Shown piece after piece: positions 11,600 to 30,844 of a stretch of 64,000 nucleotides of DNA. The translations under genes were made by a program, and so were the position numbers. Below the pieces are notes generated by a model. The model ran no database searches. It was not told where the DNA came from and worked only from the letters and a program-made list of their open reading frames with translations. How positions within the stretch are numbered: the first letter of the stretch is position 1; the number at the start of each line of letters is the position of its first letter. Source of the DNA: Spirochaetota bacterium (GTDB taxonomy: Bacteria > Spirochaetota > Spirochaetia > Treponematales > Rectinemataceae); NCBI GenBank assembly GCA_022711355.1, contig JAKLFE010000003.1, positions 1 through 64,000 on the forward strand. The letters are read 5' to 3'.

Positions 11600-11684
11600 G
11601 GAGCGGTGTCCGAGGGGCTTAAGGAGGCGGTCTTGAAAACCGCTGTGCCGCAAGGCACCGAGGGTTCGAATCCCTCCTGCTCCG
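11600..11684 (+). tRNA. tRNA-Ser (UGA)
   Basis: 85-nt class II tRNA. The acceptor GGAGCGG pairs with CTGCTCC, the anticodon loop is CTTGAAA between GCGGT and ACCGC (anticodon TGA), the long variable arm is present and the T arm is GAGGGTTCGAATCCCTC. Discriminator G; CCA is not encoded. Confidence 0.95.
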
Positions 11685-11697
11685 CGACGGAGTCATT

Positions 11698-11785
11698 GGA
11701 GAGGTGCGAGAGCGGCCGAATCGGGCTCCCTGCTAAGGAGTTATACCCCTAAAGGGTATCGGGGGTTCGAATCCCCCCCTCTCCG
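11698..11785 (+). tRNA. tRNA-Ser (GCU)
   Basis: 88-nt class II tRNA: acceptor GGAGAGG / CCTCTCC, anticodon loop CTGCTAA (GCT) closed by CTCC/GGAG, variable arm TACCCCTAAAGGGTA, T arm GGGGGTTCGAATCCCCC. CCA is not encoded. Its 3' end is repeated at 11928-11946. Confidence 0.95.
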
Positions 11786-11946
11786 GTAGATGTAAAAGAT
11801 AGGTGGTGACGCGGGGGATTCGAACCGGAGCCCTCGCCGAGCGAAGCGAGGGAAAGGCGGCAGGGATGCCGCCGACAGAGGGCGAAGGCGGGTCCGAGGA
11901 AGCTTCCACGATGGAAGCGACGAGGACCGAATCCCCCCCCTCTCCG
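11786..11946. repeat. Structured insert ending in a copy of the tRNA-Ser(GCU) 3' end
   Basis: The last 18 nt of the preceding tRNA (11768-11785) recur at 11928-11946 with one extra C in the C run. Between them, a 10-bp stem GGGGGATTCG (11813-11822) / CGAATCCCCC (11928-11937) encloses three perfect hairpins: 11831-11852, 11856-11873 and 11902-11918. It may be the scar of a small element integrated at the tRNA 3' end, a decayed tRNA duplicate or a structured spacer RNA. No gene is seen. Confidence 0.55.
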
Positions 11947-11992
11947 TCATGTATCAGGATGTCTTCGGGCGGCTCGGGCCGCGCGGGGTCTC

Positions 11993-12066
11993 GAGGCTAT
12001 AGCTCAGCTGGATAGAGCATCAGATTGCGGATCTGAAGGTCGGTGGTTCGAATCCACTTAGCCTCA
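11993..12066 (+). tRNA. tRNA-Arg (GCG)
   Basis: 74-nt class I tRNA: acceptor GAGGCTA / TAGCCTC, D arm GCTC...GAGC, anticodon stem TCAGA / TCTGA with loop TTGCGGA, so the anticodon reads GCG (codon CGC, also CGU). T arm GGTGG TTCGAAT CCACT. Discriminator A; no encoded CCA. Bacteria normally carry ACG here. Confidence 0.9.
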
Positions 12067-12074
12067 TCGCTTTT

Positions 12075-12162
12075 GGAGAGATGCGAGAGCGGTTGAATCG
12101 GGCGGTCTCGAAAACCGTTGAGCCCCTCTGGGGTTCCGAGGGTTCGAATCCCTCTCTCTCCG
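12075..12162 (+). tRNA. tRNA-Ser (CGA)
   Basis: 88-nt class II tRNA: acceptor GGAGAGA / TCTCTCC, anticodon loop CTCGAAA (CGA), variable arm with GAGCCCCTCTGGGGTTC, T arm GAGGGTTCGAATCCCTC. No encoded CCA. Confidence 0.95.
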
Positions 12163-12194
12163 GTTCCCGCTAGGTAAAAAGCGTCGTTTTCCAT

Positions 12195-12281
12195 GGAGAG
12201 ATGACCGAGCGGCCGAAGGTGCACGATTGGAAGTCGTGTGTACTCGTAAGGGTACCGAGGGTTCAAATCCCTCTCTCTCCG
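12195..12281 (+). tRNA. tRNA-Ser (GGA)
   Basis: 87-nt class II tRNA: acceptor GGAGAGA / TCTCTCC, anticodon loop TTGGAAG (GGA) closed by CACGA/TCGTG, variable arm TGTACTCGTAAGGGTAC, T arm GAGGGTTCAAATCCCTC. With the other three, the cluster covers all serine codons. Confidence 0.95.
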
Positions 12282-12293
12282 CATAGGGGATTT

Positions 12294-12410
12294 CGAGCGC
12301 CCGAAGCCAGGCACTGCGCACGTGGCCGCCGCCCAAACCCGCCAGGTCCGGAAGGAAGCAACGGTAAGCGGTAGGCGCGGTGATGCAGAGCGCCTGGCTT
12401 CGGGCGCTCG
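12294..12410 (+). ncRNA. ffs: Signal recognition particle RNA (4.5S RNA)
   Basis: A 117-nt RNA closed by a 19-bp terminal stem (CGAGCGCCCGAAGCCAGGC with its complement at 12392-12410). The universally conserved Ffh-binding region CCAGGTCCGGAAGGAAGCAA lies at 12343-12362, followed by the GGTAAGC side of the asymmetric loop. It targets nascent membrane proteins together with Ffh. No Alu domain, so this is the short bacterial form. It directly precedes dnaX, as in Bacillus. Confidence 0.95.
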
Positions 12411-24390: not shown

Positions 24391-24550
24391 TTCTTGTCCT
24401 CCTAAGGCAATTCTACTCCATCGAAGCCATATATACCACCGGAATAAAACGATTTTTATTTTGCCCGGCATGCCGCTCCGGGGCGCGCGATCGCGACGAT
24501 CGGGCCGAAAAACGGCCATGGGAAGGGCGCGTCCGTCCATGGCCGCGCCC

Positions 24551-24861
24551 CGCCTCGCAGAATAGCCGCGCTATTCTGCCATGCTTGTCTCGCCATCCCT
24601 GGCTCGACTGCGTTTTAAAAAATAAGCGGCCACCGGCGTCGCGAGTCCATCCTTGGCCTCGCGACGCCTCGCAGAATGGCTGCGCCATTCTGCCATGCTT
24701 GTCTCGCCATCCATGGCTCGACGTCGTTTAAAAAATAAGCGGCCACCGGCGTCGCGAGTCCATCCATGGCCTCGCGACGCCTCGCAGAATGGCTGCGCCA
24801 TTCTGCCATGCTTGTCTCGCCATCCCTGGCTCGACTGCGTTTTAAAAAATAAGCGGCCACC
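24551..24861. repeat. Three tandem copies of a ~113-bp palindrome-rich unit
   Basis: Units start at 24551, 24665 and 24778 (periods 114 and 113 bp). Each carries an AGAATGG-type palindrome (AGAATGGctgcgCCATTCT in copies 2-3; variant AGAATAGccgcgCTATTCT in copy 1), the stretch CTTGTCTCGCCATCC(C/A)TGGCTCGAC and a TTTAAAAAATAAGCGGCCACC segment. Copies 2 and 3 are also joined by GTCGCGAG...CTCGCGAC stems. The last segment equals half of the flaB terminator. Short open frames across the units change with frame and look non-coding. Confidence 0.85.
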
Positions 24862-24896: not shown

Positions 24897-25757
24897 TCAC
24901 TGGAGGAGCTGCAGTACCTGCTGGGTCTTCTGGTTGGCCTGGGCGAGCATCGCGTTGCCGGACTGGGCGAGGATGCGGTTCTTGGTGTAGCCCACCATCT
25001 CGTTGGCCATATCGGCGTCCCTGATGCGGCTCTCGGCGGCCTGGACGTTCTCGGCGCCCACGTCGATGCCGCGTATCGCGTGCTCGAGGCGGTTCTGGTA
25101 GGCGCCGAGGTCGGCGCGCTGCTTGTTGACCTTCTTGAGCGCCGCGTCCAGGGTCCCGATCGCGCGGTTCGACCCGTCGGGCGACTCGAGCGATATGATC
25201 GAGTTGTCGCCGACGTTCCGGACGCCGAGGGCCTTCGAGCTCATGGTGCCGATGTAGACCTGCACCCGCTGGTCCATGTTGGCCCCGATGTGGAACCACA
25301 TGGATCCGGTCACGATGTTCTCTCCCGTCTCGCGGGCGAAGCGGCCCGTGAGGAGGTTGAGGCCGTTGAACTGCGCGTGGCTGGCGATCCGGTCCACCTC
25401 GTCGACGAGCTGGCTCACCTCGACCTGGATCTGCATCCGGTCCTCCATCGTGTAGACCCCGTTGGAGGCCTGCACGGCGAGCTCGCGGAGCCGCTGGATG
25501 ATGTCCTGCGACTCCTGGAGGTAGCCTTCCGTCGTCTGGATGAACGAGATGCCGTCCTGCGCGTTCTTCGACGCCCGCTCGAGGCCGCGGATCTGGCTGC
25601 GCATCTTCTCGGAGACGGCGAGCCCGGAGGCGTCGTCTCCCGCGCGGTTGATCCGCAGGCCCGAGGACAGTTTCTCCATGCCCTTCTCGACGTTGAGGTT
25701 GGTCACTCTGAGTGAACGGTCCGCGAACATAGCGCTGAGGTTGTGATTGATGATCAT
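24897..25757 (-). CDS. flaB: Flagellar filament core protein (FlaB flagellin)
   Basis: 286 residues, the usual size of spirochaete FlaB. The N-terminus [18 protein letters not shown] and the D0/D1 stretch [20 protein letters not shown] are diagnostic. The C-terminus ([20 protein letters not shown]...) also matches. There is no signal peptide, because export goes through the flagellar type III apparatus, and the filament runs in the periplasm. A good ribosome binding site (AAAGGAG) precedes the ATG. The middle (about 120-190) is short, as expected for FlaB, which lacks variable D2/D3 domains. Single flagellin gene in the window. Confidence 0.97.
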
Positions 25758-28230: not shown

Positions 28231-28539
28231 TCAGCCGATTGCCGTTACCCGCGTCTCGCCCAGCGCCTCGGCCAGGCCCTCGCTCGCGGAGAAGCCCGAG
28301 CGGCTGAAGGTGTACAGGAGGCGGTAGCCGTCCTTGAGCCGGCGAGCGACGAGGGAGCGGATCATCCTGTCCCGGTCGGCGAGCTTCTCGAAGCGGTGGA
28401 GCCGCTCGCGCTCGCGCCCGAGCCCGACGCGGAAGGCCGCGCTCAGGGCGAAGGGCGCGTCGAGGAGCTGCTGGCGGTCGTGTATGGTGTAGTAGAGCGT
28501 CTTGCCGCCCGCTCCGGTCTTGTACAGGGTGATGATCAT
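28231..28539 (-). CDS. Small protein of unknown function (102 aa)
   Basis: Not recognised. Starts MIITLYKTGAGGKTLYYTIHD with ATG and AAGGG 4-8 nt upstream. Basic, with many Arg/Lys in the middle (ERERLHRFEKLADRDRMIRSL), and ends GETRVTAIG. No signal peptide. Convergent with the hydrogenase-like gene, 36 bp gap. It is downstream of the terminator at 28580-28621, so it needs its own start of transcription. Confidence 0.7.
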   Translation of the reverse strand: MIITLYKTGAGGKTLYYTIHDRQQLLDAPFALSAAFRVGLGRERERLHRFEKLADRDRMIRSLVARRLKDGYRLLYTFSRSGFSASEGLAEALGETRVTAIG

Positions 28540-28579: not shown

Positions 28580-28621
28580 AAAAAAAGGGGGGCCGGCGAG
28601 ATGCTTCTCGGCCCGGCCCCC
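28580..28621 (-). terminator. Rho-independent terminator on the minus strand
   Basis: Stem GGGGGCCGG / CCGGCCCCC with an inner CGAG/CTCG extension, followed on the minus strand by seven T. No protein gene lies upstream on that strand for 2 kb, so it must end a non-coding transcript. Confidence 0.85.
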
Positions 28622-29058
28622 TGATCCTGCGATCGTCGCCCCACGGGCCTTCACGGCCCTTTGCGAATGTCTCGCGGGCGACTCGCAATGCTTTGAAGAA
28701 AAGCATTCTCGAGCCTTCCTTCGGCTCGACCCATCCCTCGCGGCGCGCGCGTTCGCGCGCGCCGTTTGCAACGTGAAACGTTGCCTGGATGCGGATCGTC
28801 GCGGCGAAACCCTTCGCCCGCCCGTCTCGCATCCCCGTGCAGTAACCGGCGGCGGCCGTACTGGACCGTCGCGCTCGACGCTCGAAATCGCGACCGGCAG
28901 CTCGGACGAAAAGCTAGGATCTATCCGAGCCCGGTCCGGAACCCTCGGGGGGAGCTTCCATTGGCAGGCCCTCCTTTGCGAATCGTTCCGGTTTTCCGGT
29001 CCCACGGATGGGTTGCCGGAAGGACTTCGTACGTAGCACCTCTTGCCCTAAACCTACT
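28580..29058 (-). ncRNA. Candidate large structured non-coding RNA (~480 nt)
   Basis: Bounded by a good minus-strand promoter (29065-29093) and a canonical terminator. The transcript would fold into many stems: TTCCGG/CCGGAA around CCCA-TCCG-TGGG; GACCGG-(G)CTCGGA with TCCGAG-(CTG)CCGGTC; then, towards the 3' end, GCAACG/CGTTGC, a GC-repeat hairpin GGCGCGCGCG/CGCGCGCGCC, CGAGCC/GGCTCG and AATGCTTT/AAAGCATT. I see no match to tmRNA, RNase P RNA, 6S RNA or a known riboswitch. Short frames in it are rich in repeat-like peptides and lack ribosome binding sites. Alternatively the 3' half (28627-28815) is a dispersed hairpin repeat. Confidence 0.5.
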
Positions 29059-29064
29059 ATCGCC

Positions 29065-29093
29065 AGGATAAAAAACAAGGGAGACTAGTACAA
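29065..29093 (-). promoter_or_regulatory. Minus-strand promoter of the candidate ncRNA
   Basis: TTGTAC (29088-29093), 17-bp spacer, TATCCT (29065-29070). Expected start near 29058. Confidence 0.55.
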
Positions 29094-29371: not shown

Positions 29372-30844
29372 TTGAATAAACGGGATTTTCCGCGAGTGCA
29401 CTTCTATGACCAGGATTTTGTCGAGATGTACGACAGGACCTGGGCCTGGGCCGCCGATTGCTGGGCTTCCGGCGGGCCGAAGAGCGGCCTCGAGAAGGCC
29501 AAGTACTTTTCGTATCCCCCCGAGCCCGCCGTGGACCTCATGGAGCAGGTCTTCTCCTCCTTCTTCCTCGTCTACTCGAACCGGATCTACGCCGCCTCGA
29601 GCGGCCTCGACGCCCTCTACGCCCTCCAGGAGGAGTCGGGCGCCATCCGCTCCCGCTACGACGCCACCACGGGCAAGCCCATCTTCCCCGCCGACAACCC
29701 GGAGGGCCTCGGCCTCCCCATCTTCGCCTGGGCCGAGTACAACCTCTACCACAAGACCGCCAACAAGAAGCGCGTGAAGGAGGTCATGCCCGTCCTCCAG
29801 AAGCACTGGGCCTGGGTCGAGGCGACCTTCAAGCGCGAGAACGGCCTCTACGGGGTGCCCGTCTCCGCCACCGGCATGGAAAACTCGCCCCGGGGCGGGG
29901 CCCTCTACCTCGCCGACTTCAACGCCGCCATGGCCATGAACGCCCTCTACCTCTCCGCGATGGGCGACATCCTCAACGACAAGGAAGCCTCCTTCCAGTT
30001 CAAGCGCAGCTACTTCTCCCTCAAGACCCGCATCAACTCCCTCATGTGGAGCTCAGAGGACGGCTTCTACTACGACCTGGACAAGGACGAGAAGCAGGTC
30101 AAGACCAAGACCGTGGGCGGCTACTGGCCCCTGCTCGCGGAGATCCCCAACGAGGACCGGGCCGAGCGCCTCATCGCCCACCTCAAGGACCCGAAGGCCT
30201 TCGGCACCGAGCACCCCTTCCCGACCCTCGCGGCCGACCACCCCGACTACGACAAGCGCGGCGGCGGCTACCGGGGCTCGGTGCTCCCCACCTTCACCTA
30301 CATGGTCATCAAGGGCCTCGAGAAGTACAACCAGTACGAGCTCGCCCGCGACTGCGCGATCCGCCACCTCTACTTCGTCCTCGACTCGATGCACCAGAAC
30401 GGGAACGGGGAGGAGGATGCCGAGGAGCGCGCCGAGCGGCACGGGGGCAAGGAGCAGCGCCCCACCATCTGGGAGGCCTACCAGCCCCAGGGCGAGGGCA
30501 AGGCCGTCTGGCCCGGCCGCCCCGAGTGGCCCCGCCCCCAGCTCCTGGCCTACGCGGGCCTGTCCACCGTCGCCCTCATGATCGAGAACATCGTGGGCCT
30601 GTACATCTCCCTGCCCCGCAAGACCGTGGACTGGATCATCCCCAACCTCGAGATCATGGGCATCGAGAACCTCTCGCTCAAGCGGAACCTCGTCACCATC
30701 CTCTCGAACAAGTCGGGCCGGGGCTGGGAGATCCACATGGAGAGCGAGAAGCTCTACTACTTCACGATCAACGTGCTCGGCAAGAAGAAGAAGACCCTCC
30801 CCATCCCCTCGGGCAAGTGCTCGATGCTCATCGACAAGATCTAG
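29372..30844 (+). CDS. Trehalase/MGH1-like glycoside hydrolase
   Basis: 490 residues with an (alpha/alpha)6-barrel type sequence as in GH37/GH63 and mannosylglycerate hydrolase MGH1-like proteins: YSNRIYAASSGLDALYALQEE, LPIFAWAEYNLYHKT, ENSPRGG, SLMWSSEDGFYYDLD and IWEAYQPQGEG near the C-terminal end, then RPQLLAYAGL. No signal peptide, so it acts on a cytoplasmic sugar or glycoside; the substrate is not certain. TTG start (29372) with AAGGGG upstream; no ATG fits better. It has its own strong promoter and no operon partner. Confidence 0.8.
   Translation: MNKRDFPRVHFYDQDFVEMYDRTWAWAADCWASGGPKSGLEKAKYFSYPPEPAVDLMEQVFSSFFLVYSNRIYAASSGLDALYALQEESGAIRSRYDATTGKPIFPADNPEGLGLPIFAWAEYNLYHKTANKKRVKEVMPVLQKHWAWVEATFKRENGLYGVPVSATGMENSPRGGALYLADFNAAMAMNALYLSAMGDILNDKEASFQFKRSYFSLKTRINSLMWSSEDGFYYDLDKDEKQVKTKTVGGYWPLLAEIPNEDRAERLIAHLKDPKAFGTEHPFPTLAADHPDYDKRGGGYRGSVLPTFTYMVIKGLEKYNQYELARDCAIRHLYFVLDSMHQNGNGEEDAEERAERHGGKEQRPTIWEAYQPQGEGKAVWPGRPEWPRPQLLAYAGLSTVALMIENIVGLYISLPRKTVDWIIPNLEIMGIENLSLKRNLVTILSNKSGRGWEIHMESEKLYYFTINVLGKKKKTLPIPSGKCSMLIDKI

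Follow-up and report, generated by a model that had tools for sequence, protein, structure and literature searches.

The minus strand of the window (the whole 64,000-nt stretch of DNA that was analysed) carries, with high confidence, a real, previously uncatalogued and conserved RNA unit (Table 1). Judged from its sequence, it is an undescribed small RNA gene of the class Spirochaetia with a promoter and a terminator of its own, and no description of it was found in the open-access literature. The initial annotation had proposed an undescribed structured RNA of about 480 nt without a convincing gene. This proposal stands in that the unit is conserved and has its own predicted promoter and terminator. 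However, the RNA is not purely non-coding, as it has a Shine-Dalgarno (SD) sequence followed by an M-[DEN]-x-P-P start, and the size of about 480 nt is specific to the window's genome because length and overall fold differ strongly among relatives.

Table 1. Features of the RNA locus and its surroundings in the window.
Feature	Position	Strand	Remarks
RNA transcription unit	28580-29070	-	-10 box to end of terminator T-run, 490 nt
Promoter TTGTAC-17-TATCCT	29065-29093	-	Weak match; co-located with stronger promoters in homologues
5' hairpin P2, CCGG-CAA-CCCA-UCCG-UGGG-A-CCGG	28996-29019	-	Same layout recurs in other families with differing sequences (by eye)
SD sequence AGGAGG	28970-28975	-	Predicted pairing with Pro-Pro codons, AUG left in loop
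Micro-ORF, MEAPPEGSGPGSDRS*	28914-28961	-	15 codons; consensus M-[EDN]-[NTA]-P-P-[EDK...]
Hairpin starting at nt +26 from A of AUG, GACCGGGCTCGGA...TCCGAGCTGCCGGTC	28892-28936	-	Constant distance from AUG in family
Lineage-specific middle insertion	28740-28890 (approx.)	-	Extra hairpins; about 150 nt; missing from relatives of 340-350 nt
3' hairpin P5, UCGAGCC...GGCUCGA	28709-28729	-	Preceded by conserved GGGAUGGG; two-sided changes at three pairs
3' hairpin P6, AAUGCUUU...AAAGCAUU	28687-28707	-	Covaries, as does P5
Intrinsic terminator	28580-28621	-	GGGGGCCGGGCCGAG-loop-CTCGCCGGCCCCCC, then T7; strong
102-aa gene (MIITLYKTG...)	28231-28539	-	Conserved in 15/34 relatives and 19/23 f4 genomes
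Glycosidase gene	29372-30844	+	MGH1-like/trehalase-like; TTG start
Flagellin-like gene	24897-25757	-	Close to 102-aa gene
Tandem array	24527-24861		Directly downstream of flagellin-like gene; 113-bp unit, 2.9 copies, 91% match
tRNA genes and small SRP RNA	11600-12402	+	Row of five tRNA genes (four Ser, one Arg)

The RNA unit and its distribution

The strong minus-strand terminator of the initial annotation was borne out. The annotated promoter lies where it had been placed but is weak taken alone, with 7/12 positions matching and no flag from the promoter scanner; it gains support because homologues carry better boxes at the equivalent position (TTGACA, TTGATT and TTGACT, with TATACT, TAAATT and TACCTT). 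Among 40 homologues, a terminator was present in 31 (6% of shuffles) and a promoter in 26 (34% of shuffles, a modest excess), comparisons in which shuffles overstate independence since the 40 copies share ancestry. An independent promoter and terminator, as in dual-function small RNAs, are thus both represented, the terminator being the stronger half of this evidence. The window RNA is also more stable than its dinucleotide shuffles (z = -4.7, 0/100). A repeat or mobile element, which would have undone the initial proposal, was dropped as a reading since the genome of origin carries a single copy.

Searching 59 relatives at the DNA level produced collinear, partial matches to the RNA, and syntenic loci were recovered with the 102-aa protein, whose gene directly follows the RNA, as query. 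Upstream of this gene, a homologous RNA was found in all genomes of family f1 in which the gene was located and in some genomes of family f4, with promoter, hairpins and terminator in equivalent places. The 11 other syntenic copies first measured are 284-465 nt in length; the window copy is long because of its extra middle part. ORF length, 3' sequence and neighbours differ among homologues. Pattern searches detected the SD/micro-ORF block elsewhere in the order as well, in further families and different surroundings, and matched 27 of 288 genomes of the order, compared with 3 matches for the reversed pattern; chance occurrence of the motif is thus rare. Loci were read in context; 40 copies were accepted, and about nine matches were set aside as chance. 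Matches within other genes were discarded in this way (antisense to xseA at L088 and L091, ATPase at L094, and L106, L107, L112 and L129), and L139 was rejected as having no convincing unit.

The 40 homologues represent five families of the order plus one genome of the same class (G471), the only convincing copy among the sampled genomes outside the order. Within family f3, the genus-level groups g16, g22 and g25 yielded no matching copy. Genome G164 carries two copies 3.5 kb apart (L125 and L127) with different peptides (MENPPERYVPDGAYN and MENPPEIECLSEAKN). Scanning of genome contigs for the 3' core GGGATGGGTCGAG-N-CTCGAGA returned 37 matches, five of which are contigs of known copies; the remainder come from unrelated bacteria and were attributed to chance without individual inspection.

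The micro-ORF and the conserved hairpins

The claim that the region holds no convincing gene did not survive, as a 15-codon ORF preceded by AGGAGG is conserved in all homologues. The best-conserved block of the RNA is AGGAGG-N4-9-ATG-GAN-NNT-CCN-CCN. In the 13 copies located by DNA similarity or synteny, for which the motif was not used, M-x-x-P-P is encoded in all 13, the proline codons differ at third positions only (CCG/CCC; CCT/CCC/CCG), and codon 2 is GAA, GAT, GAC, AAC or GTG. Pro4-Pro5 is present in 40/40 copies, 27 of which were identified or verified by means of a pattern that prescribes the proline codons, and position 2 holds E, D or N in 39/40. Both SD and AUG are retained while their spacing ranges from 3 to 9 nt. 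Conserved SD and AUG together with silent third-position changes point to translation, and the micro-ORF is very likely translated. Its acidic and proline codons fall within the first six codons of a short ORF, as in leaders of the MgtL/MgtQ type. Programmed frameshifting was rejected, as frames beyond codon 5 have no conserved length. CsrA-type GGA binding was considered since AUGGA is common, but was rejected, as four copies have AUGAA.

The nested stems in the 5' half and the row of hairpins in the 3' half that were described initially correspond to one minimum free energy fold; some of the stems are conserved, but others are not, and about 150 nt of the middle is absent from shorter relatives. 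Outside the hairpins listed in Table 1, the fold is not conserved between families. Covariation in homologues, the check suggested at the outset, was found for the two 3' hairpins P5 and P6. In family f1 these are 97% paired with four pairs altered on both sides, and their covariation score was reached by 0/500 shuffles.

Local pairing averaged over the 40 copies leaves the AUG mostly unpaired and allows the SD to pair with the proline codons, and the 5'-arm probability climbs sharply to about 0.9 at +27 to +30. The most stable hairpin past codon 5 begins at +24 to +28 in 22/40 copies (related by descent, as above) versus 8.5% of shuffles, and its arms vary in sequence (GCCGG, GACCG, GCTCC, GCCTC, GGGGAT). 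Stop codons occur from nt 25 to 118, before, in or past this hairpin; therefore, the fixed quantity is its distance from the AUG, not from the stop.

These features bear on whether the RNA is a tiny messenger whose product, a peptide M-[ED]-[NT]-P-P-E..., binds a partner through its first six residues. Conservation is indeed strongest in the first six codons, with silent changes, and copies have SD, start and stop, most with a recognisable promoter and terminator. However, the ORF varies from 8 to 39 codons and is unalignable past residue 6, the copies measured have 150-330 nt of structured 3' RNA beyond the stop codon, and the +26 hairpin is retained whether it lies inside the ORF or past it. 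A messenger of this kind is therefore considered unlikely.

Neighbouring genes and alternative readings

The RNA had been placed between a sensory-hydrogenase operon and a glycosidase gene. A divergent glycosidase gene does lie on one side, as in the f1 and f4 copies, but on the other side the 102-aa gene intervenes before the [FeFe] hydrogenase-like gene. The 102-aa product had no match in Pfam or NCBIfam. In f1 and f4, GCCGATAR occurs about 10-20 nt ahead of the ATG of this gene, and in most of these copies TMAA is found at sigma-28 spacing (by eye), with a poor -35 half in the window; the combination looks like the gene's own promoter. Because it is preceded by the sigma-28 (FliA)-like GCCGATAR, the 102-aa gene is possibly in the motility regulon. 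Other features recorded in the window were a flagellin-like gene, a tandem array, and a cluster of tRNA genes with a small SRP RNA (Table 1).

About ten copies are tail-to-tail with the next gene. Convergent next genes encode RNase Y (G118, G213), an RRM protein (G038 group), GH18 (G274) and a Na/H antiporter (G164b), all identified by Pfam, and an MCP-like protein in G060, which was named by reading and had no Pfam match. Next genes of other copies, also named by reading, are radA, ychF, apt, rplM or a radical SAM gene. Such changing neighbours leave no constant gene for cis control. In four copies from three families (L111, L113, L123 and L126), the gene immediately downstream encodes a radical SAM protein whose N-terminus is of the CxxCGxxR type, an adjacency that may be an old linkage.

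Cis-acting attenuation, in which translation of a leader peptide sets terminator read-through into a downstream gene (the 102-aa gene in the window), would account for a leader-like ORF followed by a terminator, and all but one of the f1 and f4 copies near the glycosidase gene have the 102-aa gene next. Yet the RNA of G060, which adjoins the glycosidase gene, is followed by a convergent gene, with the 102-aa gene 1.7 kb away, and copies in other families have unrelated or tail-to-tail neighbours. The 102-aa gene also has its own GCCGATAR past the terminator and occurs without the RNA. The tail-to-tail copies and this sigma-28-like -10 indicate that the RNA is not an ordinary cis leader. Attenuation in cis is improbable, and as a general function acting on the 102-aa gene it was rejected.

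A purely non-coding structured RNA, with an incidental ORF and with SD and CC-CC kept for mutual pairing, would agree with the predicted SD/Pro-codon pairing and with the covariation of P5 and P6. Perfect pairing would favour CCU-CC, yet codon 4 ends in G in 32/40 copies, and AUG and an acidic or Asn codon 2 are retained at varying distance from the SD, which makes such an RNA very improbable.

Known RNA families were searched with Rfam 15 (4227 models). Some of its families share general traits with this RNA (structured, intergenic), but neither the window RNA, at gathering and relaxed thresholds, nor 20 homologous loci gave a match, in agreement with the initial statement that no known large RNA was recognised. 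ARAGORN and Rfam detected no tmRNA (tRNA-like domain and tag frame) at the window RNA, and the RNase P RNA core (RF00010) was not found in it; RNase P, tmRNA and known Rfam families were ruled out on these negatives. The RNase P type A model also had no match in the 79%-complete genome of origin (G000), probably because of an assembly gap. A diverged RNase P, tmRNA or 6S RNA missed by the models, to which the size range and the missing RNase P match would lend themselves, is extremely improbable given the negative searches, and to our knowledge none of the three begins with an SD-AUG ORF.

Proposed mechanism and its significance

Dual-function small RNAs such as SgrS/SgrT, Spot 42/SpfP and RNAIII are independent, terminated transcripts with a short ORF. 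The predicted spirochaete RNA resembles them in these respects, but their ORFs are not known to retain a Pro-Pro start followed by a hairpin at constant spacing, and no sequence relation between them and this RNA is known.

Leader peptides provide a closer comparison. The MgtL leader of mgtA in Escherichia and Salmonella likewise combines a short ORF, acidic and proline codons straight after the AUG, and alternative RNA structure, and the stalled ribosome has been mapped with Pro3 in the P site and drop-off described (PMC11282234). In MgtQ, which lies between mgtC and mgtB in Salmonella, Asp2 and Glu5 induce ribosome destabilisation, abort translation and switch RNA structure (PMC8092293). The peptide start of the spirochaete RNA (acidic, x, Pro, Pro, acidic) resembles both, with acidic residues likened to those at positions 2 and 5 of MgtQ, although MgtL has E-P-D-P where this RNA has x-x-P-P. 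MgtL is a 5' leader controlling a downstream Mg2+ transporter gene and MgtQ, likewise not a free-standing RNA, acts in cis on mgtB, whereas this RNA has its own terminator and unrelated or convergent neighbours, so that control of a gene on the same transcript is not a feature of the family.

By analogy with these systems, we tentatively favour a free-standing small RNA that may be gated by ribosome pausing or aborting at an MgtL/MgtQ-like Pro-Pro/acidic start, a reading we hold at somewhat short of an even chance. A sigma-70-type promoter would produce a 200-490 nt RNA ending at the strong terminator. Ribosomes would load at AGGAGG/AUG and read M-[D/E/N]-x-Pro-Pro-[E/D...], and a pause or drop-off would be expected at Pro4-Pro5 after the acidic residue, as with MgtL (MEPDP) and MgtQ (Asp2, Glu5). 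In E. coli, a pair of prolines by itself makes a weak stall site. Judged by the usual toeprint offset, a ribosome whose P site holds Pro4 and whose A site holds Pro5 would extend to about +25. The front edge of a paused ribosome would therefore abut the hairpin beginning at about +26, and the SD itself could pair with the proline codons. Pausing, drop-off or smooth passage might depend on Mg2+, EF-P/ABC-F factors or the availability of proline, and the state of the ribosome would determine what portion of the RNA is left free and, through this, RNA stability or the ability to act in trans.

That the family represents a new kind of trans-acting bacterial RNA, a stand-alone "ribosome-health" sensor switched by the state of a ribosome that is parked at a Pro-Pro/acidic start or aborts there, is conceivable but rather doubtful. 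If true, the leader-peptide principle would no longer be tied to a downstream gene. Translation-sensing leader peptides, MgtL and MgtQ among them, are known as cis elements that precede the gene under their control; a conserved RNA that stands alone, carries such a module and is followed by no constant gene would show ribosome sensing uncoupled from that arrangement and used in trans. Because a simple pattern (GGAGG-N3-10-ATG-RAN-NNT-CCN-CCN) finds the family easily, it can be annotated and tested immediately in Spirochaetota, a phylum with few described small RNAs.
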